DNA of 64,000 bases. Source: Candidatus Eisenbacteria bacterium. Lineage in GTDB: Bacteria; Eisenbacteria; RBG-16-71-46. The notes under the pieces were generated by a model. The model had not been told where the DNA came from. It did no database searches and saw only the letters and a list, made by a program, of their open reading frames with translations. The position numbers and the translations under genes are program-made. Each line of letters opens with the position of its first letter. Position 1 is the first letter of the stretch. Positions 25,001 to 58,403 of the stretch are shown in pieces. The DNA lies in the NCBI GenBank assembly GCA_020847735.1, contig JADLBL010000008.1, positions 62,001 to 126,000 of the forward strand, read 5' to 3'.

Positions 25001-25132
25001 GACGTTCGTGACATCGGGGAATGCATCGATTGGGAGCTCGTTGACCGCGTGAACGCCGAAGCCGATCAGCGCGAGGCAGACGAGAATAATGAGCAGGCGC
25101 TGTCGCAGCGCGAAGGTGACGAGGCGGTCCAT
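22064..25132 (-). CDS. czcA: CzcA-type heavy-metal efflux RND transporter
   Basis: 1022 aa. ATG at 25132 follows GAGGAGTGAGCCC. Hallmarks: LPIDAFPDVTNVQVQI at the first periplasmic entry and TM4 proton relay GGLAIGIGMIVDGAVVMTEN (about 388-410). It forms a tripartite pump with the adjacent czcB and czcC products and exports divalent metals; the ZntA-type and CDF neighbours argue for Zn/Cd/Co rather than Cu. It differs clearly from the RND at 4996-8109, so the window has two complete systems. Confidence 0.94.
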   Translation of the reverse strand: MDRLVTFALRQRLLIILVCLALIGFGVHAVNELPIDAFPDVTNVQVQILAEAPGMAPVEVEQLVTYPVEVSMGGLPGLAETRSLSKLGLSLTTVVFKDNVDIYFARQLVFERLQQAREKLPPGVDVELGPISTGLGEIYQYTLESPKRDAMELRTLQDWVVRPILRGVAGVTDVNSFGGLVKQYQVLVRPEQLTSYRLTLREVLEALAENNANASGGYIEHSGEQYVVRGLGLAKSKEDLGRVVVAHRGSTPIFVRDIADVTTGAEPRQGFVTRDGKGEAVAGIVLMLKGASGRDVVAAVKAKLATVQKALPRDVSVVPFYDRTELVDRAMHTVSEALLEGGVLVLLVLMLFLGNIRSALIVTLVLPLSALVAFIMLNAFGYSANLMSLGGLAIGIGMIVDGAVVMTENIFRHLAEDHGKRNIVEVVRESALEVARPIVFGISIITVVFLPLFTLEGFEGKMFAPLAFTIAAALAGSLVLSLTLVPVLSTFILKGKLSEKDTWVVARAKALYLPALAWCLKRWQVPVGLALGGLILSGVLFTRLGREFLPPLNEGAIGMQTFRLPSVSLTTSRQMELEVERVLRSFPEITTVVSKTGRADIASDPMGLEVSDVIANLRPRSEWKTAKTREELVEKIRTRLESIPGMSYSFSQPIQLRVDELVSGVKAQIAIKIVGDDLAVLREQGEAVERVIRQVRGAADVNLERTAGTAYLDVDIDRERIARYGINVADVQAIIETAIGGSEATTLREGQRSFAVVVKFPEGVRSDPAHFENLMVTAEDGQRVPLSQLAHIRVEEGPAQVSRESGQRRIVIECNVTGRDMGSFVADAQRAVAREVALPPGYFITWGGQFENQQRAMARLSIVVPLVVLLIFLLLFTSFGSLRNAILIVLNIPFALIGGVIGLFISGQNLSVAASVGFIALFGVAVLNGVVMVSYFNQLRREGATLQDAVLRGGELRLRPVLMTALVGALGLIPLLIASGPGSEIQRPLASVVVGGLVTSTLLTLFLLPILYRWLERRDVEF

Positions 25133-25136
25133 GGGC

Positions 25137-26246
25137 TCACTCCTCGCCCAGCTGGCTCTTGGACGCCTGCGACTTGAGCAGGAATCCTCCGCGGGTCGCG
25201 ACCCGCTCGCCGGCACGAACGCCCGTGAGGATCTCGGCTCGGTTTCCGCCCAGCGAGCGCACTTCCACCAGCCGGACCACGAACGTCGAATCCGTCATCG
25301 CGACGTACACGACCTTGGAATCGCCCTGGGACTGGATCGCCGCTTCGTCGATCACGAGCGCATTGCGCGTCGTACCCGTTGCGATGCGGGCCGAGACGAA
25401 CATGCCGGGACGGAGCTTGAGATCGGGGTTCCCCACCTCCAGCCGCACGTCGAGCGTGCGTGTCGTCTCCTTGATCGAACCTTCGAGGCTCACGACGTGC
25501 CCACGAAAGCCGAGGCTGGGAAACGCCGTCGCAGCAAGGACTGCCGGCTGCCCGACGTGCAGCCGATCGAGGTCACGCTCATAGGCGTCGACGACTGCCC
25601 ACACTTCTCTGAGGTTCACAATGCCGAACAGGTCGGTCCCGCCCGGGACCTGCCGGCCTGTACCAGCTTCGACCTCCGTGACGACGCCAGAGATGGGACT
25701 GCGCAGCGGCAGGTACGGAATCGCTTCGTGAGTGCGATCGAGGCGATCGAGATCTTCGGCGCCCGCACCCAGGAGCTCGAGGCGTTGGCGCGCCGAATGC
25801 GCGACCTTCACGAACTCGCTGGCATCACCCGACATCGACTCGGCGCGTTCATGGGCGAGGAGGTAGTCACCTTCGGCTGCGGAGAACTCCGGGCTGTAGA
25901 GCGTCGCAAGGATCTGTCCCTTGGAGACGTGGTCGCCGATCACCGCCTGGACGCTCTGGATCGTCCCCGAGACGCGCGTCGAGACATGCGCCAGGTTGAG
26001 AGGCTTGGGTTGGATCTGGCCGTTCACGACCACGGTGTCGGCAAGCGGCACTGCGCGCATGGCTTCCACCTGCACCTCGCCGCTCGCCAGACTGGTCGCA
26101 GGGAGGTGGATCAAGGAATCCGCGGCGGCAGCTTCCGGCGCCGGGTCGCTCTTCTCGGAGCCACAGCTCGCGATGAGCATGGCCAGCGACAACATGGGCA
26201 GCAGGTACTTCGACAAACGGATGGCGAATCGCATCGGGGTGATCAC
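25137..26246 (-). CDS. czcB: CzcB-type membrane-fusion lipoprotein
   Basis: 369 aa. GTG at 26246 overlaps the czcC stop (GTGA); ATG at 26234 is the alternative start, with GGAG upstream. Lipobox LIASC. Adaptor domains: STRVSGTIQSVQAVIGDHVS (lipoyl-like), helical hairpin, PLRSPISGVVTEVE, then beta-barrel (VWAVVDAYERDLDRL). Periplasmic adaptor between CzcA and CzcC. Confidence 0.92.
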   Translation of the reverse strand: MITPMRFAIRLSKYLLPMLSLAMLIASCGSEKSDPAPEAAAADSLIHLPATSLASGEVQVEAMRAVPLADTVVVNGQIQPKPLNLAHVSTRVSGTIQSVQAVIGDHVSKGQILATLYSPEFSAAEGDYLLAHERAESMSGDASEFVKVAHSARQRLELLGAGAEDLDRLDRTHEAIPYLPLRSPISGVVTEVEAGTGRQVPGGTDLFGIVNLREVWAVVDAYERDLDRLHVGQPAVLAATAFPSLGFRGHVVSLEGSIKETTRTLDVRLEVGNPDLKLRPGMFVSARIATGTTRNALVIDEAAIQSQGDSKVVYVAMTDSTFVVRLVEVRSLGGNRAEILTGVRAGERVATRGGFLLKSQASKSQLGEE

Positions 26247-27502
26247 TCCGCGACCGAGAGGTCGGTCAGGGCAAGCTCGTAGTTGAGCAGCGCCCGGATG
26301 TATTCGAGCTCGATCGAGCGGAAGGTCCGCAGCGTCTCGAAGAGTTCGAGCCCGTCGATCTGGCCGGTCTGGTAGTTCTGTGTGGCGGTTCGAATCGCGT
26401 CAGCAGCATCGGCCAGCAGCACGCGGTTGAACCGCTGCACCTGCTGTTCGGCGGAGCGGGCGGCCTCATAGGCGTTCCGCACGGCGAGATCCACCTCGCG
26501 TTGTGTGGTTTCCAACCGGGCTCTCGCACCACTCGATGTCGCGTGCGCCTCAGTGATGCGTGACCGGCGGTCTGTCCATGGTGCGAAGGGCAGCGTGAAC
26601 GAGATCTCGCCGCCGATCCCCGGGCTCTCGGAGCCGGGCACTCGGTCAAGCCCGGCACTGATCGAGGCCGAGGGCATCCGGCCGCTACGAGCAAGCCCGA
26701 CCTGCGATTCGCCGCGCTCGACCTCCAACTGTGCGGCTCGCAGACGCGGACGATTCGCCATCGCCGTTGTCAGCAGAGATTGGAGGCTGTCGGCGAGGGG
26801 GACATAGACCAACGAGTCCGCCGGCTCGAGTGGCTCCTCGGTGCCTCGTGCCATGAGGGTGTTTAGCGTTCGGCGATCCTCTTGGAGCGCGCGGAGGCCC
26901 TCCACCGCATCATTCTCAATCCGGGCCCTCTCCGAGCGAGCCCGAAGGACATCCAGGTACCGTGCGCCTCCCGTGCGAAGGCGAGCGCTCACCATCTGCT
27001 CGAAATCGACAGCCGTCCGGCGCAGGCTCTCCAGCCTGAGGAGGCTGAGGGCGTCAGCCTGCAGGCGGCGGTAGGCGCGAGTGGCGTCGCCTCTCAGCTT
27101 GAGGGCGAGGGATGCTCGCGTCGCCTCGGCGATCGCCAGCTCGGTTCGAGCGACCGTCTTGGCGCGACCTCTGGCGCCAGGCGCGCCCAGTTCCTGCGAC
27201 AACCGCACAGAAGTTTCGTGCTCATCGCGACTGACTGGAGTGCCGAGCTTCCCCGCCTCATAGGACAGGCTCGGGGCTTCGAACGCTCCTGCTTGTCCGA
27301 TTCGAGCTCGGGCCGCCTTGATGTCCTGATCGGCGACGCGAAGCCCCGGATTGTGAACCAAGGCCCGGACAACGCACGAGTCGAGAGTCAGCGCCTCGGA
27401 TCGTGCTCGGCCCGGCAGGCCGACCAGCCATGCGCAGAGGCCGACGCATGCGAGACTGGTCCAGAGACGATTGGATCGGTAGAAAGCATGGAAAGGCTGC
27501 AT
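26243..27502 (-). CDS. czcC: CzcC-type outer-membrane factor
   Basis: 419 aa, ATG at 27502 (TTG just before it is ignored), Shine-Dalgarno GGAGGAG. Signal peptide, then two OEP repeats (ALTLDSCVVRALVHNPGLRV at the N-terminus; RLSQELGAPGARGRAK). It provides the outer-membrane channel for the CzcBA pump; it is the first pump gene, 96 bp after the small exported protein gene. Confidence 0.88.
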   Translation of the reverse strand: MQPFHAFYRSNRLWTSLACVGLCAWLVGLPGRARSEALTLDSCVVRALVHNPGLRVADQDIKAARARIGQAGAFEAPSLSYEAGKLGTPVSRDEHETSVRLSQELGAPGARGRAKTVARTELAIAEATRASLALKLRGDATRAYRRLQADALSLLRLESLRRTAVDFEQMVSARLRTGGARYLDVLRARSERARIENDAVEGLRALQEDRRTLNTLMARGTEEPLEPADSLVYVPLADSLQSLLTTAMANRPRLRAAQLEVERGESQVGLARSGRMPSASISAGLDRVPGSESPGIGGEISFTLPFAPWTDRRSRITEAHATSSGARARLETTQREVDLAVRNAYEAARSAEQQVQRFNRVLLADAADAIRTATQNYQTGQIDGLELFETLRTFRSIELEYIRALLNYELALTDLSVAE

Positions 27503-27598
27503 CAAGGGATGGCTCCTCCGGAGAGCGAGTAAGGGACTCGGCCGAAATGGAAACGGCAGCGAGGACCATGTGGTCTCGCGGTCGAACGGCGGAGGAGC

Positions 27599-29817: not shown

Positions 29818-30174
29818 TCACGCTGCACCCTTTTGGGGCCCTTGCGCGGCCTGCCACCGCTTCAACCCGAGCTCCGAGAACCGTAGGGCTTTCCTGGACA
29901 GCCGCCTTGCGAAGGGCAGTCTGGGCGCGTGCCGGTAGAGCCAGCGCGGCGTGACGCCGAGTCGTCCGGCGGCGTCCTCGACCGAGATGAGCCGGTCTTC
30001 CTCCTGCCGCCGGACCGGGCCCGGTTGGGCGATCGATGCCACGCGGGCCGCCAGCGTCGCTTGGATTGCAGCGACCTGAGCGAGCAACACGGCGGCATCC
30101 TCGACCTCGAGCTGATGCACGCGGCCTGGATCGGCCAGTACCGCGGCAAGCAGTGCACTGCGGTCGGAGTTCAT
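29818..30174 (-). CDS. Helix-turn-helix protein (AlpA/excisionase-like C-terminus)
   Basis: 118 aa. ATG at 30174 after GAAAGGGCAGGTC. C-terminal half DRLISVEDAAGRLGVTPRWL followed by YRHAPRLPFARRLSRKALRF is a MerR-like winged HTH of the AlpA/Xis kind, ending SELGLKRWQ. The N-terminal half is helical. Last gene of the long minus-strand run; may act in excision or regulation of the element (inference). Confidence 0.65.
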   Translation of the reverse strand: MNSDRSALLAAVLADPGRVHQLEVEDAAVLLAQVAAIQATLAARVASIAQPGPVRRQEEDRLISVEDAAGRLGVTPRWLYRHAPRLPFARRLSRKALRFSELGLKRWQAAQGPQKGAA

Positions 30175-30316
30175 GACCTGCCCTTTCCGTGATTCAGCGG
30201 CCGGGAGGCGCCGACCCGCTTGAGCCGCAGGTTCAACCTGCAGGCTCGGCGGTCCGGGAAGCCGTTCCGCTTGATCCCGCGCGTGCAGCCGGCGTGTTGC
30301 TCTCAGACTCGTCCGG

Positions 30317-30640
30317 TCACTCGCCGCCAGCCAGCAAGCCCCTGCCGAGGCGTCGAAGCCAACGTGAGCGCAGGCCGTGGTAGAGCACAAAGACACCGAG
30401 CACCAGCACGACGGGCTCGAGAATCACGTGCCCTGGGGGCCAGATCCCGGCCTCGTCCAGCTGAGCGCTGACGGGGTTCGGAGTGCTCAAGGCCACTGCC
30501 AGTCCCACGAGGACCAGCAACGTCTTCGGTTTGAAGCGTGCCAGCACGGACAACGAGTGCCACACCAGTCGTGAGACGCCCACGACGGGAAGCAGCACGA
30601 GCCAAAGGAGCGCGCCCAGGATTCGTCGAGACATAGGCAT
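30317..30640 (-). CDS. Small membrane protein
   Basis: About 107 aa from ATG at 30640 (another ATG at 30634). Three hydrophobic stretches: ILGALLWLVLLPVVGV, TLLVLVGLAVAL and VILEPVVLVLGVFVLY. The middle one ends in NPVSAQ, resembling a signal-peptidase site. No family recognised. Separated by 41 bp from the 61-aa gene upstream. Confidence 0.5.
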   Translation of the reverse strand: MPMSRRILGALLWLVLLPVVGVSRLVWHSLSVLARFKPKTLLVLVGLAVALSTPNPVSAQLDEAGIWPPGHVILEPVVLVLGVFVLYHGLRSRWLRRLGRGLLAGGE

Positions 30641-30681
30641 GTTGGTTACGGTTAGTGAGCCAACGCTCCCGGCCATCTTCT

Positions 30682-30867
30682 TTAGTCCTCTTCGAGTTCG
30701 GCGGTGGCGCTGTCGACACCGCCATCCATGTGGATCGAGTTGTTGCCGTCGTCGATCGCCTCCAGGTCGAGCGCCTTCTCCTCGGCCTCGGCCCCCGAGT
30801 TGGCGATGATGTTGTGGTAGCGAAAGACGTCCCAGCGCCTGACAGTCACGGTGAAGGTCGGACTCAT
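30682..30867 (-). CDS. 61-aa acidic protein
   Basis: ATG at 30867 overlaps the preceding stop (ATGA), with GGGAGAGTGG as Shine-Dalgarno. Sequence starts MSPTFTVTVRRWDVFRYHNI and continues with an acidic helix (GAEAEEKALDLEAID), ending ATAELEED. Not recognised; a beta-hairpin plus helix small fold is plausible. Confidence 0.6.
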   Translation of the reverse strand: MSPTFTVTVRRWDVFRYHNIIANSGAEAEEKALDLEAIDDGNNSIHMDGGVDSATAELEED

Positions 30868-31379
30868 GTCCACTCTCCCAGCGGGTCCCGGGTCACGGGC
30901 ACGATTGTCGCGCCCCCTCCCGCGAGTTGCCGCAACAAGGCCTTGGCCGATCCACCCACGATTTCGTGAAGCATGGTCAGCCAGATCCGGACCGCCTCCT
31001 CCTGCGCGAGTCCGTGGGGCATCGACAGGCGCCACCACTCGCCGGCGAAGGCCAGCGACGAGAGGCGTCGCTTGAGCCAAGACGGCGATAACGTCGTCAG
31101 GGTGAGCACCTCGAGGTGGATGCCGGCGGCGCGGCACCCGACCCAGTACGACAGGTCCGGAACCCAACGGTGGGTGACGATGAGGAACTCGCGGACATCC
31201 CGCCGGCGTCGCGGGTCCAGGCTCGCGAGTCCGCGCGTCCAGCGGGACGAGCCGTCGAGACCGCAGCGCTCGAGTTCCACTTCGATCGCGTCGAGGAGTT
31301 CGGCGCCAAGGTCGGCAGCTCCCTCGAGCAGCAACGAATCTCGTTCCAGGATGAGATCCGCCCGAATCGGCCGACTCAT
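30864..31379 (-). CDS. Uncharacterised protein of the element operon
   Basis: 171 aa. ATG at 31379 overlaps the stop of the replication-relaxation gene. Mostly helical, Leu/Arg-rich; no signal or TM. Not recognised. Fixed in the operon by ATGA overlaps at both ends, so presumably functional with its neighbours. Confidence 0.6.
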   Translation of the reverse strand: MSRPIRADLILERDSLLLEGAADLGAELLDAIEVELERCGLDGSSRWTRGLASLDPRRRRDVREFLIVTHRWVPDLSYWVGCRAAGIHLEVLTLTTLSPSWLKRRLSSLAFAGEWWRLSMPHGLAQEEAVRIWLTMLHEIVGGSAKALLRQLAGGGATIVPVTRDPLGEWT

Positions 31380-32296
31380 GAGCGATCCTCCTCACGCCTC
31401 GGGGCCACGACGTAGTGCGTTTCGTCACGCGGATCGAGAGACACCCAGCCGTGCTCGAGCAGGCTCGTGCTGTGGAGGGCACCTCGTGTCGTGAGCCAGA
31501 TGAAGCGCTTCGCCATCTCGTGCTCCATGGGCATGGAGCCCCATCGGTCCCGAATCGTCTGCACACGAGCAGCGGAGGCCGTTACCACGAGCACCCGGAA
31601 GCCGCGGAGCCCTTCTGGAAGGCCCAGCCGAGCTCGGAGACCATCGAAGGAACCGTTCACAAGGGCGCGAAGGTAGAAGCGCACGAACAACCCGACACCG
31701 CGCTTGGGGTCCCCCACGACCTCAGTCCCGCGATCGATCTCGACGAGGAAGAACGCTTGGCGCTCGCCACGCCGCATGGCGAAGGCGAGGTCCGGCGTAT
31801 GCGTGATGCGCTCCGCCGGCTCGCCGCCGAACGCCACCGTCTCGGCGAGCAGCGCCCGCGGCTGCGCGGCCGCTGCAACAGCCGTGCGATCGGTGTCGGC
31901 GATCACATTCAACAGGTCGACATCCGGCCGCTGGCCGGCCGACAGCACAATGGAGATTCGGAAATCATTGACCTCGAGTTGGTGTCGCAGGAAGTAGGTG
32001 CCCGGCAAAGCGACGGGCCTACATCGCGCGACCGCAGCGCCAACGCCCGGCGTAGCGTTCGCGTTCAGAGTGGCCACTCCCAGCGGCGAGAGCGAGATGA
32101 TCTGTGTCGGCACGCCGTCGCTCCGTCTGCGAACAACCAGCCCGGCCTGCTCGAGGCGACGGAGGCGGCGAAGCGCCGTCTGGGCCGACTGGAAGTGCAG
32201 CCGCTCGAGCTGCTCGCTGGTGAGCAGCCGGTACTCCGCAAGCGAGCGGAGAAGGGAGCGGTCGCGCTCCGTGACGATCGGGCCGGGGCGGGTCAC
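31376..32296 (-). CDS. Replication-relaxation family protein
   Basis: 306 aa. GTG at 32296 overlaps the stop of the ATPase gene. An N-terminal winged HTH (ERDRSLLRSLAEYRLLTSEQ, LRRLRRLEQAGLV) is followed by the Replic_Relax domain with a nuclease-like core (THTPDLAFAMRRGE ... FFLVEIDRGTE). Members occur on conjugative plasmids and ICEs next to the coupling ATPase, as here. Confidence 0.75.
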   Translation of the reverse strand: MTRPGPIVTERDRSLLRSLAEYRLLTSEQLERLHFQSAQTALRRLRRLEQAGLVVRRRSDGVPTQIISLSPLGVATLNANATPGVGAAVARCRPVALPGTYFLRHQLEVNDFRISIVLSAGQRPDVDLLNVIADTDRTAVAAAAQPRALLAETVAFGGEPAERITHTPDLAFAMRRGERQAFFLVEIDRGTEVVGDPKRGVGLFVRFYLRALVNGSFDGLRARLGLPEGLRGFRVLVVTASAARVQTIRDRWGSMPMEHEMAKRFIWLTTRGALHSTSLLEHGWVSLDPRDETHYVVAPRREEDRS

Positions 32297-33885
32297 AGTG
32301 CCTCTCCCGGGTTCAGGCCATTCAGGCCGTTCGTGCGCGGCGCGCGCTCGGCGGTGGCGGCGGGACGCGCGTAGCGGGCGCGAGAGCGGCGAATGACCTC
32401 CTCGCGCACTTTCGGGTGACCGCCCGCGGGTGGCGGAAGCGTCCTGAGCCGGAAGACGCTTCGGCCGATCCGGCACACGGCCTCGCCCGTGCGCAGGCTC
32501 ACGAGCTGCTCCGCCTCCACCGGCATGAGGTGCCCGTCGACTTCGCCGACGAGTTCACGCGAGAGGCGGCGTGCGTCGCTGGCCCCGACCTGAAACGCGA
32601 CAACCGTGCCGACGTTGCCGAGGATCTCGCGCATCAGGTTCTCGCCGATCTGGCCGGTCTGCTGGTGCGCGAGCACGAGTCCGAGACCGTACTTGCGAGC
32701 GCGCGACAGCATCACCTCGTACGAGGTTGCGGCCACGTTCGCGAAACGCTGGAACTCGTCGACGTAGACCATGAAGAGCCGGCGCTGGTGCTGCGGGATG
32801 TTCGCGCGACTCAGTGCTGCGATCTGCAGCTTGGCCACCACAAGCTGCCCGAGCAGTTGGGCGTTCTCCTCGCCCAAGAGTCCATCGGACAGCTTGAAGA
32901 GAATGACTCTCTGCTCGTCCATCGCCCGGCGAACGTTGAAGCTCGGGCCGGGCTGGCAGAGCAGGTTGCGCACCGTGCGCGGCCGCAGGAATCGCCCCAG
33001 GCGATTGACGAGCGAGAGGTGGGCGTCCTTGGGGTAGGCCGAGTAGATGTCGCGCCAAAACCGACGGGTCTCCTCATCTCGGGTCTGCTCGATGATCCAG
33101 CGGCGGAAGCCGTCGTCCTGGCGGTCGAGGAGTCGCTCGATGTCGAGCAAGGTCGTGTTGGGAATCGGCAGCAGAGCGTAGAGGGCCTGCCGCAGAATCA
33201 TCTCCATCCGAGGCGCAGCAGTCGCCGTGTCCTCCGCCAGCCGCTGGAAGATCGCCATCAGCTCGGCGCTCTTGAGGTCGAGGTCCTCGCCCTCGTCTAG
33301 GTGGAGCGGGTTGAACGACACCGGGAAGTTCAGGTCCCCGGGGTCGACGACCACGACGTCGTCCCACCGCGACCTGGGGATGTACGGCAACAACTCGTCC
33401 GAGATCATCTCCGCCTCGGGGGCGACCACGGCGAGCCCGTGCCCCGCCTCGAGGTCTTGCAGGATCATCCGACGCAGCGCGGTCGTCTTGCCGGTTCCGG
33501 TCCGCCCCACCTGGTACTGGTGACGGGCCCGAAGCGAGTCCGGCAACCGAACCGGGATCTCCTCCCCGTCGCGGTCGAGGTAGCCGAGCAGCGGCCCGGA
33601 GATGGACTCTGCTCGGGCATCCAGTTCGGCCCTCAGGTCGGCCGGGGAGATTCCGCCATCGATCCAGCCGCGAATGTCCGACCCCTTGGCGACGTGGCCG
33701 GCGAGGTATCCGCGCGTGCTGTTGAAGTCGCGCAGCACAGCATCGCACTCACGTCGCCGGCGCGCATCGAGTCGCCGGCGGACCAGTGCATGCTCTTCCT
33801 GAGCCTGCCCGTGCCGCGCGTGGATTCGCGAGAGGGCGTACCCGCCAACCCCCAGCGCACCGAGTCCAACCAGCCAGCCATTCAT
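32293..33885 (-). CDS. Coupling-protein-like ATPase (VirD4/TraD superfamily)
   Basis: 530 aa. N-terminal single TM (WLVGLGALGVGGYAL), Walker A GRTGTGKTT (about 130), Walker B LFMVYVDEFQ (about 375) and a HQQTGQ sensor. Family role: hexameric inner-membrane ATPase that feeds DNA or protein into a secretion or conjugation channel. ATG at 33885 overlaps the 53-aa gene. No relaxase or other T4SS genes are visible nearby. Confidence 0.85.
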   Translation of the reverse strand: MNGWLVGLGALGVGGYALSRIHARHGQAQEEHALVRRRLDARRRRECDAVLRDFNSTRGYLAGHVAKGSDIRGWIDGGISPADLRAELDARAESISGPLLGYLDRDGEEIPVRLPDSLRARHQYQVGRTGTGKTTALRRMILQDLEAGHGLAVVAPEAEMISDELLPYIPRSRWDDVVVVDPGDLNFPVSFNPLHLDEGEDLDLKSAELMAIFQRLAEDTATAAPRMEMILRQALYALLPIPNTTLLDIERLLDRQDDGFRRWIIEQTRDEETRRFWRDIYSAYPKDAHLSLVNRLGRFLRPRTVRNLLCQPGPSFNVRRAMDEQRVILFKLSDGLLGEENAQLLGQLVVAKLQIAALSRANIPQHQRRLFMVYVDEFQRFANVAATSYEVMLSRARKYGLGLVLAHQQTGQIGENLMREILGNVGTVVAFQVGASDARRLSRELVGEVDGHLMPVEAEQLVSLRTGEAVCRIGRSVFRLRTLPPPAGGHPKVREEVIRRSRARYARPAATAERAPRTNGLNGLNPGEAL

Positions 33886-34043
33886 GACCAGCGCCTCTCC
33901 GAAGTGAGGTCGATGCCCTCGCCACCCTGTATCTCGACCCCGTACAGGGCCTGTACTTCCGGTCCGTACAGGGTGCGCGGCTGCAACTCTTGGCTCTGCC
34001 GCGAGCTCACCATCGCTCGAAGCGCCCGACTGCCGTGCCTCAT
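33882..34043 (-). CDS. 53-aa protein coupled to the ATPase gene
   Basis: ATG at 34043 overlaps the stop of the 91-aa gene, and its own stop overlaps the ATPase start (ATGA both ends); Shine-Dalgarno GGAGAGG. N-terminus MRHGSRALRAMVSSRQSQEL is basic, and the C-terminal half contains two TLYG/ALYG repeats (RTLYGPEVQALYGVEIQ). Not recognised. Confidence 0.6.
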   Translation of the reverse strand: MRHGSRALRAMVSSRQSQELQPRTLYGPEVQALYGVEIQGGEGIDLTSERRWS

Positions 34044-34315
34044 GGCCTACCTCTCCGCTGAGTGGTGCGTGGGGTCATCCAATGGGCCCTCGCTGGCAGT
34101 TGCGGAGCCCTGACGACTCGGGTGTTCCGCCTCGGCCGGAACTTCCTGACGAAGTGCCATGCCTTGAAGCTCAGATAGCTGGTGACGCCTAAGGCGAGCA
34201 GCACCGGTATCCAAGCGTGGTCACCCTGCACTGAAGCTCGGGCCGCACCGAATACGACAGCGCAGACGAGAAGCAGTCCGGCGAGTCGCTGGGCCGAACG
34301 GACGAGCCGGTCCAT
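34040..34315 (-). CDS. Small two-TM protein
   Basis: 91 aa. ATG at 34315 shares a base with the previous stop (TAATG). Two hydrophobic helices (LAGLLLVCAVVFGAA; IPVLLALGVTSYLSF) and a strongly basic C-terminal tail. Topology suggests an inner-membrane partner of the neighbouring coupling-like ATPase; no family recognised. Confidence 0.6.
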   Translation of the reverse strand: MDRLVRSAQRLAGLLLVCAVVFGAARASVQGDHAWIPVLLALGVTSYLSFKAWHFVRKFRPRRNTRVVRAPQLPARAHWMTPRTTQRRGRP

Positions 34316-35073
34316 TACCAGTCCTCCCCGAAGGCGTCGCGGTACAGATCGCGAGCCTCGGCTGGCGAGAAGCCGAGCCCGAGCGGCTGGCCGTCCCGGC
34401 GCAGCTCGAAATGCACCTCACCCCATCCGTCAGGTCGATAAGCGTGGCTCGTTCCGGAGGCTCCGCTCATGCCGATGACCTCACCCTCATGCACTCGCGT
34501 GCCTGGCTTGAGGTCGGCGCGAACGGAATCCAGATGGGAGTAGCTGGCCGTGTAGAGGTGGCCATCGCGCACCCCCAGGTTGAGAGTGATGCGACGCCCG
34601 TGCAGCGCCCTCAAGACTTCGGGCGGCGTGTTCCCCAGCTCGCGGCACTCACGGAGCAGGGCGTTGCGCTGTACCTCAGGTAGCACGGGCTCGTTCTCGA
34701 TCGTGAGTACGGTCGCATCCTCAGCCGCGTGGACAGGCGTTCCGCGCAGGCACCGGAAGTCGACTCCTTCATGAACGCCGCCGCGGTAGGCACGAGCAGC
34801 GCCGGGAAGCCGATCTGGTGACGTCGGCACGACGACGCCGTCGATGGGTTCCGCAAGTTCGGGCAGGTCCACCGGTATCTCGACCGCGGGTTCCTGAGCA
34901 GCATCGCGAACCACGAGATCACAGTCATCGACCGGCGTGGTCGCGATCGGGCGCGTGCGCTGCATCGCAACTCGCAAGGCAGCCCCCTGGACGCCGACAC
35001 TCAGGACGAACAGCAGCAACGCCGCGTGCGAGCGCACGAAGCTGGGCGTGAGCCGGAGGAGGTCAACGAACAT
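34315..35073 (-). CDS. M23/LytM-like cell-wall peptidase domain protein
   Basis: 252 aa. ATG at 35073 overlaps the SH3-gene end by 11 bp. An N-terminal hydrophobic anchor (ALLLFVLSVGVQGAAL) places the domain outside the membrane. Zinc-site motifs: GGVHEGVDF (first His and Asp) and GEVHFELRRDGQP (second zinc His), with YSHLDS between. In the usual HxH the first His is catalytic; here it is Glu (EVH), so activity may be changed or lost. In transfer operons such enzymes open the murein for the channel; paired here with an SH3 protein. Confidence 0.75.
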   Translation of the reverse strand: MFVDLLRLTPSFVRSHAALLLFVLSVGVQGAALRVAMQRTRPIATTPVDDCDLVVRDAAQEPAVEIPVDLPELAEPIDGVVVPTSPDRLPGAARAYRGGVHEGVDFRCLRGTPVHAAEDATVLTIENEPVLPEVQRNALLRECRELGNTPPEVLRALHGRRITLNLGVRDGHLYTASYSHLDSVRADLKPGTRVHEGEVIGMSGASGTSHAYRPDGWGEVHFELRRDGQPLGLGFSPAEARDLYRDAFGEDW

Positions 35074-35917
35074 CGGCGAGCCCTCCCTCATCGACGGCCA
35101 TCCGACGTCCGTCGGCCAGAAGGGCGGTGCTGCGTCCGTCATCGCTCCGCTCATGGAGCACACGATCACCAGGTCGCAGCACGACGCGTGAGCTGCCCGC
35201 GCCGCCGACCATGAGGCGGCGAACGACAGCTGGCACCAGAATCGTGCTCGGCGCGCCACTAACGTAGGCACCGAAGACCCACCCCGTGGCTCCCGAGTTC
35301 GTGGCGATCGAGACCCATCCGTCTCGCTGTTCGCGAATCTCTACCGGCTGCCGATCCATCAGCTTGGTCACGACGGCGTAGCCCAGCCCCGGACCCGCAC
35401 GGAGGTTCACGTTGACTCCGCTGATAACGCCTCTTGGCGTGGATTCGCCGGGCGTCGGGCTCGCAGTCGTGTCCTGCCTCGGCTGAGCCACGATGTTCTC
35501 GAGAACCGAGGGGCGATCCCCGAGCCGATTGCCATAGCGCGCCCCGGCGTTGAGCGCGAGGGCTACCGCAATCCCAGCACAAACCAGCGCCATTCCGAAC
35601 GGCACCGGCGCGGTGAACATTCGAGGCACGGGGATTCGGATCTCGAGAGGCTGGGCCGGCGGCAAGTTGGGCGCTGGTGGCACGAACCTCGGAGCCACTG
35701 GACGCACCGGAACGGGCGCAGGAATGTCGGCCCGCGCCGGCGGTACCGCAGCCGGTTGAGCCGCAGCCGGTACGACAGGTGCGGGCGCCCCGGCCGCCTC
35801 CGGCCACCCGATTTCAGGCGCGAGTGGCAGCGGACCATCGGGCACGTTCTGGATAGCGCGGGCGACCTCGGGCCGCAGCCGGCCGTTGTCGTCAGTCAGG
35901 TCGGGGCCGATGGTCAC
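35063..35917 (-). CDS. Membrane protein with bacterial SH3 domain
   Basis: 284 aa. GTG at 35917 overlaps the E1-like stop. A Pro/Ala-rich N-terminal region is followed by a TM (FGMALVCAGIAVALALNA), then an SH3b domain (NVNLRAGPGLGYAVVTKLMD, RDGWVSIATNSGATGWVFGAYV). SH3b domains usually bind peptidoglycan, fitting the M23-like neighbour. No family name recognised for the whole protein. Confidence 0.7.
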   Translation of the reverse strand: MTIGPDLTDDNGRLRPEVARAIQNVPDGPLPLAPEIGWPEAAGAPAPVVPAAAQPAAVPPARADIPAPVPVRPVAPRFVPPAPNLPPAQPLEIRIPVPRMFTAPVPFGMALVCAGIAVALALNAGARYGNRLGDRPSVLENIVAQPRQDTTASPTPGESTPRGVISGVNVNLRAGPGLGYAVVTKLMDRQPVEIREQRDGWVSIATNSGATGWVFGAYVSGAPSTILVPAVVRRLMVGGAGSSRVVLRPGDRVLHERSDDGRSTALLADGRRMAVDEGGLADVR

Positions 35918-37041
35918 GAGCGCACCTCCGGAGACGAGCGGAAGCCGCACACAGGGCACGCGTCTTCGCGGATGACGCGCGCATGGACAACGTCCAGCGG
36001 TCGACGGAAGAGGTTCGAGTACTCCGCCTGCGGAGCGCTCGGGCCATGAAGGAGAGTGAAGCAGCCGTGTGCGAGCAGATCAGCTCGACTCCCCGCCGGG
36101 TCGAGCACGGCGAGCACGTGCGCCGCGACCACCGATGCGAGGTAAGTGATGTCCAGCCCCAGGCCTGGCTCGGCCGTGAGCCTGCTCATGTCGGCGCGCT
36201 GGTAGGCCTGCCGCCGCTCGTGTGGCCCCGCTGCCGGGGAGACGGTGGCCCTGAATCCGGTCGCGCAGTAGAGGCACGGCCCCTTGCCGGGACGCACGAC
36301 CAGCACCTCGCCAGCTCGTGCGAGCTCGTACGCGCCCGCGAAGACGCCGATCTTGCCGGTTCGAACGACTGACTCGTTGACCAGGAACTGCACGACCGGC
36401 GAGTCGGTTGTGGCCACGACGACGTCAGCGGGCTTGAGGAGGAGATCCAGTTGGCGGTCGTCGACCTTCTCGATGTCGACCGTCACGCCAAGGGCGTTGC
36501 AGCCGGCCATCGAGAGGTGCTCAGTCGTCGCGATGGCCTTTTCACGTCCGAGATCGGTGAGTCCACAGATGTGGCGCGTGAGATTGGCGGTGTCGAGAAC
36601 GTCGCGGTCGTAGACGCGATGAAGCCCGACACCCGCCTGGGCGAGCAGCAACCCAACTCCCGAGCCAAGCGACCCAGCGCCGACGTAGTGCGCCTCGAAG
36701 CTCGCCAGCCCATGCTCGGGGACCAGACCGCGGCGACGATCGTCGAGGTCGCCGACCCTGCCGAGCACGAGGAGAGAAGCAGGCGTCGGCAGGTCCTTCT
36801 CGAGCTCGATCTCGACCTCACCACCCTCGAGCGCGACTGAAAGGCGCGGGCCAAGGACGCGCGAGCCCGGATTCACCCATCCCACGCGACGGAATGCGGG
36901 ATTGGCCTGCTTGAAGCGCGACAGCACCTGAACGAGCGATTCCTGCGGGCGGTAGATTCCAAAGAGGGGTTGGCGCCTCCCCGCGGTAGCTGCGGCGGCC
37001 AGCACCTCCGGGATCACGGCCAAGCGGGTCTGGGTGGGCAT
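35914..37041 (-). CDS. E1-like ThiF/MoeB/HesA adenylating enzyme
   Basis: 375 aa. ATG at 37041 with GGGAGGAATGAC upstream, 1 bp after the JAB gene stop. The nucleotide-binding loop VGAGSLGSGVGLLLAQAGVG (about residue 118) and the segment DVLDTANLTRH are E1/ThiF hallmarks; VVATTDSPVVQFLVNE gives the later active-site strand. A zinc site is suggested by CLYC and CPVC. An extra N-terminal domain of about 110 residues precedes the fold. Role: ATP-dependent adenylation of a ubiquitin-like partner for the E2-like protein. No Ubl gene is certain nearby. Confidence 0.85.
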   Translation of the reverse strand: MPTQTRLAVIPEVLAAAATAGRRQPLFGIYRPQESLVQVLSRFKQANPAFRRVGWVNPGSRVLGPRLSVALEGGEVEIELEKDLPTPASLLVLGRVGDLDDRRRGLVPEHGLASFEAHYVGAGSLGSGVGLLLAQAGVGLHRVYDRDVLDTANLTRHICGLTDLGREKAIATTEHLSMAGCNALGVTVDIEKVDDRQLDLLLKPADVVVATTDSPVVQFLVNESVVRTGKIGVFAGAYELARAGEVLVVRPGKGPCLYCATGFRATVSPAAGPHERRQAYQRADMSRLTAEPGLGLDITYLASVVAAHVLAVLDPAGSRADLLAHGCFTLLHGPSAPQAEYSNLFRRPLDVVHARVIREDACPVCGFRSSPEVRS

Positions 37042-37042
37042 G

Positions 37043-37561
37043 TCATTCCTCCCTCGCACTCGCGGTCGGCCCGCCGAGTGCTTCGAGGATGAGCGGGTCG
37101 TCGTCAGGCACGACTTTGAACGGAATCTCACGGAAGTCGGGCGCGTCCCGGTGCATCAGGTATGCACGCACGCACACCTCGCCGTCGCGCACGATGGCGA
37201 TCGGGAAGACCGCCTGGACGAGGTCCCAGCCCGCGTCGGTGACGATGTGGCGCGCGGTCGCGTGATCCACCGCGCTGGGCGAGTCGAAGTGGCCGGGGTG
37301 TCGGTGCCATGCGCCGACGAACGTGCAGCCGAAGTTCTCGTAGGCGTGGTCGAGCAACGCTTGCTGATACTCGACGTCCGGACTGAAGCGTGCCCGGGCC
37401 CTCACCGCCTTCGGACCACCGGGAATCGTGAAGGGTGCCACCAGCGCACCGCCGATCACGCGGCCGGGCAGCAGCCCACCGGTTTCGACGCCCGGGAAGG
37501 CGAAGATGCTCGATTCGATCTGCTGGAATCCGCGCTTGGCCGTCACGAACCGGGCGATCAT
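37043..37561 (-). CDS. JAB/MPN (JAMM) metallopeptidase
   Basis: 172 aa. ATG at 37561 overlaps the E2-like stop (ATGA). The JAMM site is complete: Glu in PGVETGG, then HRHPGHFDSPSAVD (HxHP x6 SxxD). JAMM proteins next to E1/E2 pairs remove or process ubiquitin-like tags, or cut a precursor at its C-terminus. Its coupling to E2 and E1 makes that role likely here. Confidence 0.88.
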   Translation of the reverse strand: MIARFVTAKRGFQQIESSIFAFPGVETGGLLPGRVIGGALVAPFTIPGGPKAVRARARFSPDVEYQQALLDHAYENFGCTFVGAWHRHPGHFDSPSAVDHATARHIVTDAGWDLVQAVFPIAIVRDGEVCVRAYLMHRDAPDFREIPFKVVPDDDPLILEALGGPTASAREE

Positions 37562-37938
37562 CGGGACCACTCCCCGGTTCGCCGCCAGGTCTGGTAGTGA
37601 CGAAGCCAGTCGGTCGCGTTCGCGATCGTCTGCACGACCGTGTCCCGGTCCGGGTTCCAGCGATTGAGATAGACGCAGAGCGAGCCGTCGACGTACCGGT
37701 GCGGGCAGCCACCAACGAGCGCAGGTGATAGGACGTGCAGCTTCGGCGCCTCGTTCGGATAGCGATCGGGCAACTCGGCGGAGACCTGATAGGTCCGGCC
37801 GCCACGAACACGCAGCCAGCCGCGCCATGCCAACCGACCACCTGGCAGCTTGAACAAACGGAACCCTGGGAAGTGCGCTCTCATGGCATGCAACTCCGCG
37901 CTCAGACGTGTGGCGCCTCGTTGGCTTGCGAACCACAT
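37558..37938 (-). CDS. E2-like ubiquitin-conjugating-fold protein
   Basis: 126 aa. ATG at 37938 follows GGAGGAG. The UBC-like core reads RTYQVSAELPDRYPNEAPKL (strands plus the YP...P turn), then CPHRYVDGSLCVYLNRW: the Cys in GSLCVY is at the place of the E2 catalytic Cys, after the HPN-like His. The last third is helical (TVVQTIANATDWLRHYQTW). This matches bacterial E2 proteins found with JAB and E1 genes. First gene of the coupled E2-JAB-E1 set. Confidence 0.85.
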   Translation of the reverse strand: MWFASQRGATRLSAELHAMRAHFPGFRLFKLPGGRLAWRGWLRVRGGRTYQVSAELPDRYPNEAPKLHVLSPALVGGCPHRYVDGSLCVYLNRWNPDRDTVVQTIANATDWLRHYQTWRRTGEWSR

Positions 37939-38118
37939 GTTCAGCTCCTCCTCCCTTGCTCACTTGCTGTCGATTTGGGGTTTGGGTCGCGCCTGCAGGA
38001 GGCGGGGGCGGTCGTCAATCGGGGAGCCTTCGTGCCAACGGGCACTCGCCGCCACTGCGCGAAGGAACCGTTGGTCTAGTGGACCCGCAGTCGCACGACC
38101 ACCCCGCTCCCACTCTTT

Positions 38119-38289
38119 CTAGGCCTTGCCGAACGTGTGCGGCGACAACTTCGTCGGCTTCACCGGCGTCGGCGCCAAGCCGGCCGCCTCGACTGGCTGC
38201 ACATCGCGGACGACGCCGTCGGGCGTCAGCTCGACTTCACGTGCGCCATCGTCGTTGCCGGCGCCGGGCTGCTCACGCGTGTCCCTCAT
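38119..38289 (-). CDS. 56-aa protein upstream of the E2-like gene
   Basis: ATG at 38289 with AAGGAGGAG 6-7 nt upstream; stop TAG at 38119. Sequence begins MRDTREQPGAGNDDGAREVE and ends KLSPHTFGKA. Acidic, Pro-rich, probably disordered; no C-terminal Gly-Gly, so it is not an obvious ubiquitin-like protein, but its place before E2-JAB-E1 makes it a candidate substrate or adaptor (inference). Confidence 0.55.
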   Translation of the reverse strand: MRDTREQPGAGNDDGAREVELTPDGVVRDVQPVEAAGLAPTPVKPTKLSPHTFGKA

Positions 38290-38347: not shown

Positions 38348-38908
38348 CTAGGCCGTTCTCATGAACCTGGAGCCACAGCGGTTGCAGGTGGCGTCGAACT
38401 GGTCTGACGCCACGCGGACCTTCACCTCGCACTCGCACTGCCAGAGCCGGAGACGCGTGGTCTGCTTGGGTTGCTCAACGACCGAGAGCGCCGCATGCGG
38501 CAGAGGGCCGAGCGCATCGGCGATGGCGTTTAAACGACGGCCGAGTTCGGGCCCCGCCGTGGTCGCGGTTGGCGGTCCGACCAGCCCGCACGCGCGCGCC
38601 ACTGTGACGAACTTGCCGCGGTGCCCACAGTTGGTACCGACGGCGGCGTGCACGAGCTCGTGCAGAAGCACGTCGAGGATCCGCTCCGCGTTCACCAGCA
38701 CGGGTGAGACGAAGACGGCGGGGCGCCCGTCGGCTGCAGCCTGCTCGGGCCAGCACTGGCCGATTGATCGGCCCCGCCCACGGGCACCCTTCGGGAAGCC
38801 CATGGAGACCGAGACGGGAGGACACTCGACGCCGGCGTCGCGCAACAGGGGGCGGAGGTGCTCGCATGCCTCCAGGAGCCAGGCCTCGCGCGTGTCCATC
38901 GTCCTCAT
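38348..38908 (-). CDS. SprT-like zinc metallopeptidase
   Basis: 186 aa. ATG at 38908 after GGGAGCGAGAGC. Active-site helix LHELVHAAVGTNCGHRGKF (HExxH plus a third His), and a C-terminal zinc ribbon (CECEV ... CNRCG). SprT/Spartan proteins cut DNA-protein crosslinks; element-borne copies may act on replication or transfer intermediates. Shine-Dalgarno and position suggest it starts the next part of the operon after the hairpin at 38965. Confidence 0.8.
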   Translation of the reverse strand: MRTMDTREAWLLEACEHLRPLLRDAGVECPPVSVSMGFPKGARGRGRSIGQCWPEQAAADGRPAVFVSPVLVNAERILDVLLHELVHAAVGTNCGHRGKFVTVARACGLVGPPTATTAGPELGRRLNAIADALGPLPHAALSVVEQPKQTTRLRLWQCECEVKVRVASDQFDATCNRCGSRFMRTA

Positions 38909-38964: not shown

Positions 38965-38991
38965 GCCCTTCCGCCGTACTGGCGAAAGGGC
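38965..38991 (-). terminator. Hairpin with T-rich tail after the 72-aa gene
   Basis: GCCCTTCCGCC-GTACT-GGCGAAAGGGC, 10 of 11 arm bases pair; on the minus strand it is followed by GTTCTTGTTGTT. A fair intrinsic terminator between the genes at 39059 and 38908. Confidence 0.5.
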
Positions 38992-40996: not shown

Positions 40997-41346
40997 GTCA
41001 TGCCCCCTGGTGGATACGGCGGCTCTCGTGGCTGGGGTGGACGCCACCGAAGGATCTTTGAGGTGCACTTCTCGGGCGGATCTCAGAGGTTCACGGCAAT
41101 GCTCCGCGGCCCCGCATGGTCTCGCTCCGAATTTCGTCTCTTGACGGAGTCTCGCCCCCCCGCCTTCAAAGCAGACCGGGAAGGCCGTGTATTCTAGAAC
41201 ATGAAGTTGAGCGACAACAGTCGGCTCCGCGACCCTGTATCGTGGCCCGCGACCAGCCTTGCCCTGTTGACTTGGGGCCCTGGTGTCGGGAGGTGCTGGG
41301 CCCAGCTCAGGTTGCATCTCTCCACGTCGTCAAGGAAGGAGCACCG
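40997..41346. other. 350-bp divergent intergenic region
   Basis: Between the minus-strand gene starting at 40996 and the plus-strand AbiTii gene at 41347; presumably holds both promoters. I see no supported gene or RNA. Confidence 0.4.
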
Positions 41347-42246
41347 ATGGCTTCGATCGTCCTTGAACTTCAGCAGGATGCGCTCGACCGCACCGTCCGC
41401 GTCTCCGACCTGCTGCGGAAAGCGCTCGTCGTCGCTCGAAAGCTCGGACTCACTGAGATTCAAGGGTGGCTTGAGCACGAACTCAATGGCTACGCCGCAT
41501 CCGAGCAGTGTCCCCAGTACCGCGAGGTCACGGGCCGTGTGATGGGATGGAACCCATATCGGGGGTGGATTCCCGTCGGCTTCAACGACGCCGAGGACCA
41601 GAAGCGACTCTCGGCTCGGAAGTGTGGGCAATCGATCGCAGAGCTCGAATCGCTCGTTACCGACTCAGGTAGAGATTCGGGCTACCACATGCCCTTCCCC
41701 GTGGACCAGACGCTCCGCCTCAGTTCCGGCCTCGAGTTGCGCACGCAACTCAGCCTCTTCACGCAGCGGTCAGCCCTCGTCGGGATCATCGACTCGGTGC
41801 GAAACACGGTCCTCGATTGGGCGCTGAAGCTCGAAGAAGGCGGTGTCTTGGGTGAGGGGCTGACCTTCTCTCCAACTGAGAAGGCAGCAGCGGCGACTGC
41901 AACGCACAATGTGACCAACTTCTACGGAGCTGTCTCCGGAGTGCAGGTTCAGCAGGCGGGGAGCAACGCGATTCAGCTCTCGACTACCCTGCCCGATCCC
42001 GAGGCTTTGGGAGCGTTCTTAGAGCAGATCCGAGCGGAGACACCAAAGCTGGGACTCAGCACCGAGTTGCAGGCCGAACTCGTAGCCGAAGCGGACACTC
42101 TCGAGATTCAGGCTCGCTCGCCTCGCCCAAAGCCGACAATCATCAAGGAGAGCCTGCGTTCGGTTCGCACGATCCTCGAAGGCGCAGCCGGTGGGGCTGC
42201 GGGGCAGGCTCTGCTCGTGGGCCTGACGAAGCTACTCGGGGGCTGA
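41347..42246 (+). CDS. AbiTii-domain protein
   Basis: 299 aa. ATG at 41347 with AAGGAGCACCG. The AbiTii domain covers about residues 1-100 (SIVLELQQDALDRTVRVSDL, LLRKALVVARKLGL, LEHELNGY). The middle contains NFYGAVSGVQVQQAGSNAIQ, a short repeat-rich linker, and the C-terminus a Gly/Ala-rich helix (EGAAGGAAGQALLVGL) that could sit in or on a membrane. AbiTii domains are linked to abortive-infection-like defence; the mechanism here is unknown. Confidence 0.8.
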   Translation: MASIVLELQQDALDRTVRVSDLLRKALVVARKLGLTEIQGWLEHELNGYAASEQCPQYREVTGRVMGWNPYRGWIPVGFNDAEDQKRLSARKCGQSIAELESLVTDSGRDSGYHMPFPVDQTLRLSSGLELRTQLSLFTQRSALVGIIDSVRNTVLDWALKLEEGGVLGEGLTFSPTEKAAAATATHNVTNFYGAVSGVQVQQAGSNAIQLSTTLPDPEALGAFLEQIRAETPKLGLSTELQAELVAEADTLEIQARSPRPKPTIIKESLRSVRTILEGAAGGAAGQALLVGLTKLLGG

Positions 42247-42316: not shown

Positions 42317-42733
42317 TCAGTTGAGCGCAAGCTCTCTGCGGAACATCGCCGACAACCGCAGGCTCCCCTCCATCTGCGCGTGCGGCGCGTTGGCCTTCTG
42401 CACCTCCGTGAAGGCGTTGAAGAGCGACCAGGCCGTCCTCGGCGCGAACTCCGGGTGCGGAGGCTCCTCCCAGGCCTCGATCACCTTGGGGAGTCGCGAG
42501 GCTGGCAGGACGCGCGCGCGGATCGCCTCGACCATGATGTGATGCGCGTGAGCCTGCGGGAGATCGAGGGCCTTCATCGCCGCGATCTCCGCGTCCATGC
42601 GCTCCCGCATGGACGAGACCTGCCCGAGCATCCGGTAGATCAGGTCCGGCAGGTCGCGGAACACGTTGATCGTGTGTTTCCGGCTCATGGACACCTCACC
42701 TGAGAAGGCGAGGTTGTCGCAGACGAAGCAGCG
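42317..42733 (-). pseudogene. DUF932 gene, 3' (C-terminal) half
   Basis: Encodes CFVCDNLAFSGEVSMSRKHT then a helical region and APRTAWSLFNAFTEVQKA, the C-terminal half of a DUF932 protein. Joined to 51988-52300, with one copy of AGCG removed, it gives an open 241-codon frame (GSR + CFVCDN), so the gene was intact before the 42734-51987 insertion. A separate start at 42688 (with a Shine-Dalgarno) could still make a shorter protein. Confidence 0.9.
42730..42733. repeat. Target-site duplication AGCG (left)
   Basis: Matches AGCG at 51988-51991; the two copies flank the RIT element. Confidence 0.75.
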
Positions 42734-51835: not shown

Positions 51836-51937
51836 GGTGCACCTCCCCGGGTTGGAACCGGAATGGTGCACCCCTCCCGTTATGTTGAGGAACAGTGGTT
51901 CGATCTGTCGGCCGGGGCGGCTTCTGTGGCGTCAGAT

Positions 51938-51987
51938 GCGCATAATCAGGCCCTGCCCATAATGCCGGTTATGACGAGGTACGCATA
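51938..51987. repeat. RIT right terminal repeats
   Basis: Contains GCGCATAAT-CAGGCC-CTGCCCATAAT (51938-51963), the inverted counterpart of the left end, plus an outer pair GGTTATG / CGCATAAG within 51968-51990 that could be the recombinase core site. Confidence 0.7.
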
Positions 51988-51991
51988 AGCG
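51988..51991. repeat. Target-site duplication AGCG (right)
   Basis: Matches 42730-42733. Confidence 0.75.
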
Positions 51992-52300
51992 GGAGCCGAA
52001 CGTGGCGCCAACGGCCAGGGACCGGTCGTACGACGACCTGAGCCCGATCGCGAGCGCGTAGTCGCGGGCGCTGTGACCGTTGGTGCAGGTCAGGACGCCG
52101 AACATCTGCGCCCCTTCCCGCGCCAGCGCGAACTGCGACGACGTGATCTCGAGCCCGAAGCGCGGGATGTGCAGCTCGACTTCTTCGACGAAGCGGTCGT
52201 ACGGCACCGGGAAGTAGCTCTCGGTCGGCTCGGGAACGGGAACGGCGGCGAGGTCGGCCTTGGTGGCCTCCCACCCGCCACGGTGCAGCATGAGCGTCAT
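51988..52300 (-). pseudogene. DUF932 gene, 5' (N-terminal) half
   Basis: ATG at 52300, Shine-Dalgarno AGGAGGGCGCC. Encodes the DUF932 N-terminal half (YFPVPYDRFVEEVELHIPRF, DYALAIGLRSSYDRSLAVG, ATFGSR) before running into the RIT end. DUF932 proteins are common on plasmids and phages; role unclear. Confidence 0.9.
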
Positions 52301-54750: not shown

Positions 54751-54935
54751 GGAAGGCCTCCTGACAAGGGGCGGGTGAGCCGGAGGCACGAGCGCTTCCG
54801 AACTGCGTTGTCAGCGTAGGGCATTGGTGATCAGCTTCGTAGGGGGGCTGACGTGCGCTAGACTACGCATCATTGTGGACAAGTGTCGGTGCGAGCATGC
54901 GCTACGCATTGCAGGGCCTCGTTCAGGTTGAGGGT

Positions 54936-57897: not shown

Positions 57898-58403
57898 CGG
57901 CCAGCCGCCACCGCCAACCCCAGCGCGTCGAACATGTGGAGCCAGTACTTGTCGCGTGGACGCAGCCCAAGCGCTGCCCGCGCGGGGCGCTTCGGGACCA
58001 GATCAAAGAGCTGCTTGAAGTCCCCGGCCACGAGCCTCTCAGCCACGTCGATCTTCGTTGCGCGTGGGTTGCCCACGACGACCTGCCGCACCTGCTCGGG
58101 CGTCAGTTCGACGACCCGCAGTCCGAGATCCTCGGCCCTTCCTCGCAGTTCCTGATCGATCACCGAGAGGAGTGCCGCCCGCTTGGTGGGCAGCGCGTAC
58201 GGCTTCTCGATGGCGACGACCTGCGGGCCGTGTTCCTCGATTGCGGCGAGCACGATACGCCGCGCTTGCCCGATGACATCGTGTGGGCGGTGCCCGTTGC
58301 GCAGCGTGTGCACGCCGAACGAGACGAGTTGGCGATCGCGGATGATGGCGAGGCCCATCTCCTTGGTTCCCGGATCGATTCCGAGGATGGTGTTCTGTTG
58401 CAT
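57888..58403 (-). CDS. RuvC-like nuclease 1
   Basis: 171 aa, RuvC/RNase H fold. First Asp in LGIDPGTKEMGLAI, Glu in VVAIEKPYALP, last Asp in KYWLHMFDALGLAVA. Likely a Holliday-junction resolvase. Its end overlaps the Argonaute gene tail by 10 bp (convergent). Resembles the second RuvC-like protein at 58521 in the C-terminal motif. Confidence 0.75.
   Translation of the reverse strand: MQQNTILGIDPGTKEMGLAIIRDRQLVSFGVHTLRNGHRPHDVIGQARRIVLAAIEEHGPQVVAIEKPYALPTKRAALLSVIDQELRGRAEDLGLRVVELTPEQVRQVVVGNPRATKIDVAERLVAGDFKQLFDLVPKRPARAALGLRPRDKYWLHMFDALGLAVAAGRQM

Follow-up and report, generated by a model that had tools for sequence, protein, structure and literature searches.

A putative small-protein conjugation cassette in an AICE-like transfer operon of Candidatus Eisenbacteria

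On which protein does a bacterial E1, E2 and JAB enzyme set act when it is encoded among genes of DNA-transfer type, and what could it do there? The question is raised by a 64,000-nucleotide stretch of Candidatus Eisenbacteria DNA (assembly GCA_020847735.1, contig JADLBL010000008.1, positions 62,001–126,000; referred to here as the window), the host of which is represented only by a MAG. The original prediction held that E2-, JAMM- and E1-like genes lie back to back at 37043–38289, that a chain of overlaps carries on from them into transfer-type genes, and that the modifier may be a 56-aa protein (38119) or a second small protein (39059).

Operon layout and conjugation enzymes

The operon runs on the minus strand from 38908 to 29818 and encodes, in order, a SprT-like protein, the 56-aa protein, E2, JAB, E1, an SH3 protein, an M23 peptidase, a 91-aa transmembrane protein, a 53-aa ORF, a VirD4/TraG-type ATPase, a replication-relaxation protein, a 171-aa protein, a 119-aa transmembrane protein and an HTH protein. 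The interval 37043–38289 holds the E2, JAB and 56-aa genes, while the E1 gene (35914–37041) lies outside it. Overlap is seen between the E2 and JAB genes (ATGA), and the JAB and E1 genes nearly touch, but the 56-aa gene does not belong to this chain, as it stands 180 nt from E2 (158 nt in the relative) and carries its own ribosome-binding site (AAAGGAGGAGACGAAG-ATG).

The three enzymes are securely assigned from sequence, with profile matches and intact catalytic residues that agree with the original prediction. The E2-like enzyme (37558–37938; PADLOC E2 1e-20, UQ_con 0.002, PDB E2 matches) contains Cys88 in HRYVDGSLC, which is invariant across four aligned homologues, and its closest relatives are found in short type II CBASS on plasmids, as the single E2 of each system (L013, L014, L101 and L102). 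The JAB/JAMM isopeptidase (37043–37561; Pfam Prok-JAB 3e-6, above the cut-off, and ICE_VC0181 8e-14) contains the motif HRHPGHFDSPSAVD of the form E...HxHx(7)SxxD, where H86, H88, S96 and D99 are invariant in six sequences; its start is the ATG at 37561, and the 306-aa ORF at 37043–37963 is an over-extension. The E1/ThiF-like adenylating enzyme (Pfam ThiF 1e-23) contains GxGxxG, R156, K168 and D213, all invariant in homologues, and a CxxC...CxxC zinc site with four conserved cysteines. The core of its predicted structure has the E1 fold, with the NEDD8 E1 subunit UBA3 as best Foldseek match (6e-13), while the N-terminal region of about 110 aa is modelled with an AF2 confidence below 50.

Besides the zinc cysteines, C159 (RHIC) is the sole candidate cysteine of the E1. 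It is found in the window, L018, L012 and L112, but has no counterpart in L019 (Chloroflexi) and L030 (Hydrogenedentes), and no non-zinc cysteine is common to all homologues; lack of conservation of an active-site cysteine, named in the original prediction as evidence against it, is therefore seen on the E1 side in part and not at all in the E2. Since C159 is missing from L019 and L030, the E1 might only adenylate its substrate, with direct hand-over to the E2. Many E1-like enzymes work without a catalytic cysteine.

The best PDB sequence match of the E1 profile is MccB, an enzyme activating a short peptide, and the N-terminal region of the E1 could bind one. An MccB-like E1 tailoring the small peptide into a secreted microcin- or RiPP-like product, with the JAB as leader or tail protease, is nevertheless very improbable, as a canonical E2 with a conserved cysteine has no role in such pathways, and no exporter or immunity gene is seen in the operon.

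The types of gene predicted downstream of the enzymes are found there. The SH3-domain membrane protein (35063–35959; Pfam SH3_3 8e-13; ORF start uncertain) has one hydrophobic segment and a homologue in L016/L018, and the membrane-anchored M23 peptidase (34315–35100, ORF open to 35271; Pfam 3e-13) has a 49% identical homologue in L016. The 91-aa membrane protein (34040–34315), also with one hydrophobic segment, has a weakly matching positional counterpart in the same locus. These are followed by the VirD4/TraG-type (T4CP-type) ATPase (32293–33885; TrwB_AAD_bind 9e-11, TraG-D_C 2e-5), the replication-relaxation protein with a winged helix and a Replic_Relax domain (31376–32476; PF13814, 6e-21), the 171-aa protein (30864–31379), an ORF without a Pfam match, the 119-aa membrane protein of three segments (30317–30676; 50% identical to L128 11224–11496, beside the Replic_Relax gene of that locus) and the HTH protein (29818–30396), which occupies an excisionase-like position and is 78% identical to L132 2675–3013, also placed after Replic_Relax. 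Of the genes that would mark an AICE-like element, a Tra-type ATPase, a Rep/relaxation gene, Xis and an integrase in one region, the window has ATPase, Replic_Relax and HTH genes in this order, and the integrase of its element, a serine recombinase, lies at 60919–62520; the tyrosine integrases of L127/L128 are adjacent.

At the other end, the operon starts with the SprT-like zinc protein (38348–38908; 6e-4, below the cut-off), for which tblastn against the related loci finds no counterpart. A terminator-like hairpin (38965–38991, minus strand), identified by pattern match only, lies upstream and separates the operon from the second candidate modifier. This protein (39059; 81 aa from GTG, 72 aa from ATG) was rejected, as it has no counterpart in related loci and lies beyond the hairpin.

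The element and its surroundings contain several other genes. A SPARTA-type pair at 54873–57897 (+) consists of a TIR-APAZ protein (PADLOC Aga_TIR 5e-119) and a short Argonaute (pAgo_I 3e-191), and an AbiTii abortive-infection-type protein (Pfam 6e-47) is encoded at 41116–42246 (+). A DUF932-like gene that is intact in L016 (477–1202) is present in the window as two pieces about 9 kb apart (42317–42694 and 51932–52300, minus strand), split by an insertion that contains istA/istB, several tyrosine recombinases and a large secreted protein. By eye, the tandem RuvC-like genes at 57888–58403 and 58521–59036 (−) seem to be diverged duplicates, and the element appears to be flanked by a Czc/Cus-type efflux set (22064–27505) and by TlpA-like and mercuric-reductase-like genes (62557–64000).

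The 56-aa protein and its relatives

The 56-aa protein (38119–38289) holds up as a candidate partner, and three other loci encode a member of its family immediately before E2. The relative in another Candidatus Eisenbacteria species (SJ457; L018, the same locus as L016) has 58 aa, is 48% identical and has its own ribosome-binding site, while those on a Mesorhizobium plasmid (L012, 57 aa) and in a genome from a third phylum (L112, 69 aa) are 70% identical to each other. The four proteins share the pattern (V/I)xxxP(D/N)GxxRxx, a variable linker, KP and a tail consisting of a glycine plus extra residues. The window copy ends in KPTKLSPHTFG-KA, where two residues follow Gly54, and the tails of the four members read TFG-KA, TFG-AA, LGG-EY and LGG-EYTTLIKENIVNGLA. 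They resemble the tail of a trimmed precursor, because the extension after the glycine differs in length among members (2 aa, and 15 aa in L112). The family members are only about 57 aa long and the E-values of their matches are modest; dN/dS values of the small gene (0.51/0.80) are not decisive. The family is undescribed so far: the window copy matches no family of Pfam, NCBIfam or PADLOC and has one marginal match to a PHROG of unknown function, and no family match was found for the relatives tested. On plasmids, members were found in Mesorhizobium only. Scans of IMG/VR with E1, E2 and small-protein queries returned nothing relevant (L103 is a chance peptide match), and phage records contain no match to the E1 or the small protein.

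Three further loci were considered for membership and left out. The Chloroflexi locus L019 has E2, JAB and E1, and no small gene was found upstream; the 64-aa ORF before E2 in the Hydrogenedentes locus L030 looks unrelated. A tiny ORF in L127 (5519–5623, +), ending in KKPLIPPGTFRR and located upstream of E2-like and JAB-E1 genes, has a tail resembling that of the small protein and is suggestive only, as its glycine is not at the right place. In L030 (275–2091 for the whole locus), a membrane JAB carrying LPVRTFGTKA near its C-terminus precedes the 64-aa ORF, E2 and E1.

A beta-grasp fold, hoped for in the original prediction, is not predicted for the 56-aa protein: AF2, with an alignment of two sequences, shows one beta-hairpin (residues 18–30) in a mostly low-confidence chain (mean pLDDT 63). 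The modifier might then be a ThiS/MoaD-type Ubl encoded elsewhere, with the small protein as regulator or target. Ubls are the normal substrates of the E1 and E2 fold classes, and the use of endogenous ThiS/MoaD proteins has been proposed for some sets (Iyer 2006, PMC1779556). This alternative is nonetheless improbable, as the four cassettes, across phyla, share a single extra gene, that of the small protein, whose conservation is concentrated at the C-terminal tail, and Cap2 accepts non-Ubl tails (PMC10097602). The 56-aa protein itself is probably the tag of the cassette, judging from its conserved position and tail.

Recurrence beside transfer genes

The search for similar neighbourhoods covered 47 genomes of the phylum and, in a single scan, the GTDB representatives, and found recurrence where the original prediction had allowed for an isolated chance arrangement. 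L016, in the second species, repeats the order small protein-E2-JAB-E1-SH3-M23-TM-ATPase, with about 41–51% identity for the proteins compared; the exact architecture of the window is present in these two species only (2 of the 47 genomes). As the L016 contig stops inside the ATPase gene, we infer the remainder of its operon from L132, on another contig of the SJ457 genome, where an ATPase nearly identical to that of L016 is followed by Replic_Relax and by an HTH protein 78% identical to that of the window. The ATPase of the window has no match at 1e-20 to that of the second species, which is of a different subfamily; it is therefore the ATPase slot, rather than the exact protein, that is conserved.

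In the genome of the window (G000), JAB and E1 are fused in two further elements (L127 on contig C21 and L128 on contig C3), where the fusion gene stands immediately ahead of ATPase, Replic_Relax and tyrosine integrase genes. Their E2-like genes have no library match and match the profile of window-type E2s weakly (hhalign probability 25%). Each of the three Replic_Relax loci in this genome lies 3.6–5.5 kb from a JAB gene; nine JAB hits in 3.66 Mb give an expectation of about 2.7% per locus, and of 7e-4 for the pair of loci that was not preselected. Across the phylum, a cassette or its JAB-E1 form accompanies 4/7 Replic_Relax loci (one of them inferred across contigs), and the ATPase/Replic_Relax loci L133–L135 (3/7) are without it. 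ATPase and Replic_Relax are also combined with an NlpC/P60 hydrolase on Embleya and Streptomyces plasmids (L138 and L139), where the regions looked at contain no E1, E2 or JAB. Because this layout exists there without the conjugation enzymes, the ATPase/Replic_Relax module appears to be a true transfer module that would have acquired the enzymes in this lineage.

With so few carriers (2/47 genomes), the arrangement could be coincidental or decaying and have no joint function. This is the least probable of the alternatives, as reading frames are open, catalytic residues and gene order are conserved at about 50% identity, and the association is repeated in separate elements. The tie between cassette and DNA-transfer genes proposed in the original prediction looks real from these comparisons, and its purpose is putative.

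The small-protein loci L012 and L112 have a different companion, an MBL-fold protein in place of transfer genes, in the order small protein-E2-E2'-E1-JAB-MBL, and look like a split 6A-MBL system with the same small-protein family, at scores far below the curated cut-offs. Their second E2-like protein (L012 9379–9909; L112 6826–7407) has a Phd/YefM antitoxin-like N-terminus, and at the position of the usual cysteine L012 has Ser (DGSLS), whereas L112 has Cys (DGSLC).

The 6A-MBL-like MBL protein that accompanies the small protein in these loci bears on the main rival reading, in which the cassette is anti-phage or anti-plasmid defence cargo of the element, perhaps with the ATPase and the nuclease-like replication-relaxation protein as effectors. 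The related CBASS, 6A-MBL and Bil systems all serve defence, TIR-APAZ with pAgo and AbiTii are carried on the window element too, and the ATPase scores against MADS mad8 (PADLOC). Against this, the cassette shares its operon with M23, SH3, TM and transfer genes in an order kept in the second species, and in two further elements its slot is taken by a JAB-E1 of different build, whereas cargo tends to be less fixed. The genome has no CD-NTase (SMODS) hit, and the cassette contains no nuclease or phospholipase effector. Defence cargo is a serious rival, judged less likely than the preferred reading given below, and the external Ubl and MccB-like tailoring are less likely still.

Known systems and a proposed mechanism

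Short type II CBASS, which consists of CD-NTase, a single E2 and an effector, contains the closest E2 family, and its partner is processed and conjugated via a C-terminal tail, likewise with no Ubl. It differs in that the window has no CD-NTase or effector, and instead has separate E1 and JAB genes and a free 56-aa partner. CD-NTase tails of CBASS loci often have a hydrophobic residue near the glycine and a short extension (KHDFHGGRV, SYFGDDAPR, NMGGEWFLD), although about 26% of background ORFs end in this way and the likeness is weak alone. The prokaryotic E2 that acts on cGAS reportedly processes the cGAS tail as well. Jenson et al. described the conjugation of cGAS, which has no beta-grasp, by Cap2 via a C-terminal Gly/Ala, and its reversal by Cap3 (PMC10097602), and PMC12135389 cites Yan et al. 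2024 for 'cGASylation' by a prokaryotic E2. Type II CBASS with Cap2/Cap3 (Iyer type 6b), often found on ICEs and plasmids, thus combines E1, E2 and JAB activities with a non-beta-grasp substrate, whereas in the window E1 and E2 are separate genes, the order is E2-JAB-E1, transfer genes are co-operonic, and no CD-NTase is found in the operon by Pfam, NCBIfam and PADLOC searches.

The 6A-MBL system (Iyer type 6a, an E2-E1-JAB fusion plus MBL) is matched weakly by the E1 and JAB of the window (NF058523; 58 and 30 bits against a cut-off of 320); the window genes are split, no MBL gene is present in the operon, and 6A-MBL as described does not include the small protein. Bil (BilABCD) follows the same four-part logic of modifier, E2, E1 and JAB, but BilA is a double beta-grasp Ubl. 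The PRTRC plasmid cassette is likewise a mobile-element set with ThiF and JAB proteins; PRTRC_ThiF gives 16.6 bits against a cut-off of 144.75, and the other window proteins have no PRTRC match. As in the window, the transfer regions of actinomycete AICEs and linear plasmids contain an ATPase, a replication-relaxation protein, a cell-wall hydrolase, an Xis-like HTH protein and an integrase, the last being a tyrosine integrase in L127/L128 and a serine recombinase in the window. Pup, a small modifier that is for the most part disordered and has a Gly motif at its C-terminus, resembles the 56-aa candidate, but the ligase PafA attaches it to a C-terminal Glu, and no PafA/Dop-type ligase is seen in the operon. 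The original prediction contrasted known E1/E2/JAB sets, as defence or tagging systems, with the tie to transfer genes seen here. The co-operonic link is indeed new, as is the small protein, but the mobile setting is not, since Iyer 2006 placed type 6b operons 'mostly in ICE-like mobile elements and plasmids' (PMC1779556).

Our preferred reading, held at somewhat less than an even chance, is a small-protein conjugation cassette in an AICE-like transfer operon, with the 56-aa protein as modifier in place of a beta-grasp Ubl, that would regulate the envelope and DNA-pump machinery. By analogy, we read it as Pup-like or cGAS-like small-protein conjugation in AICE-like transfer operons. The JAB or the E2 would trim the two residues after Gly54 (TFG-KA), and the new C-terminal glycine would be adenylated by the E1. 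The peptide would then pass to Cys88 of the E2, directly or via an E1 thioester, and on to a target lysine, from which the JAB could take the tag off again. Components of the cell-wall module or the DNA pump would be the likeliest targets, because the cassette is translated with the SH3, M23 and TM proteins, a VirD4/HerA-type ATPase and the replication-relaxation protein; the tag might switch transfer on or off. The basis of this reading is the genes, the conserved catalytic residues, the conserved small protein and the conserved neighbourhood. In its favour, four loci from three phyla keep the small protein in the same position and with a conserved tail, and the related CBASS E2s and Cap2 offer an analogy in partners with non-Ubl tails. 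Against it, two of the four small-protein loci (L012 and L112) are without transfer genes.

Bacterial ubiquitin-like systems have been explained so far mostly as immunity. The conserved cassette in transfer operons would be, to our knowledge, the first such system with a likely DNA-moving role. It is possible, though doubtful, that the small proteins form a new class of modifiers, of 55–70 residues, mostly disordered, trimmed to a C-terminal glycine and served by a dedicated E1-E2-JAB set, and that in some lineages they would control conjugative DNA transfer rather than defence. The idea is directly testable in E. coli, given the short small protein and the few genes. If true, small disordered modifiers served by E1, E2 and JAB would separate these enzymes from the beta-grasp fold, and would support the view raised by CBASS that the enzymes recognise tails and not a fold.
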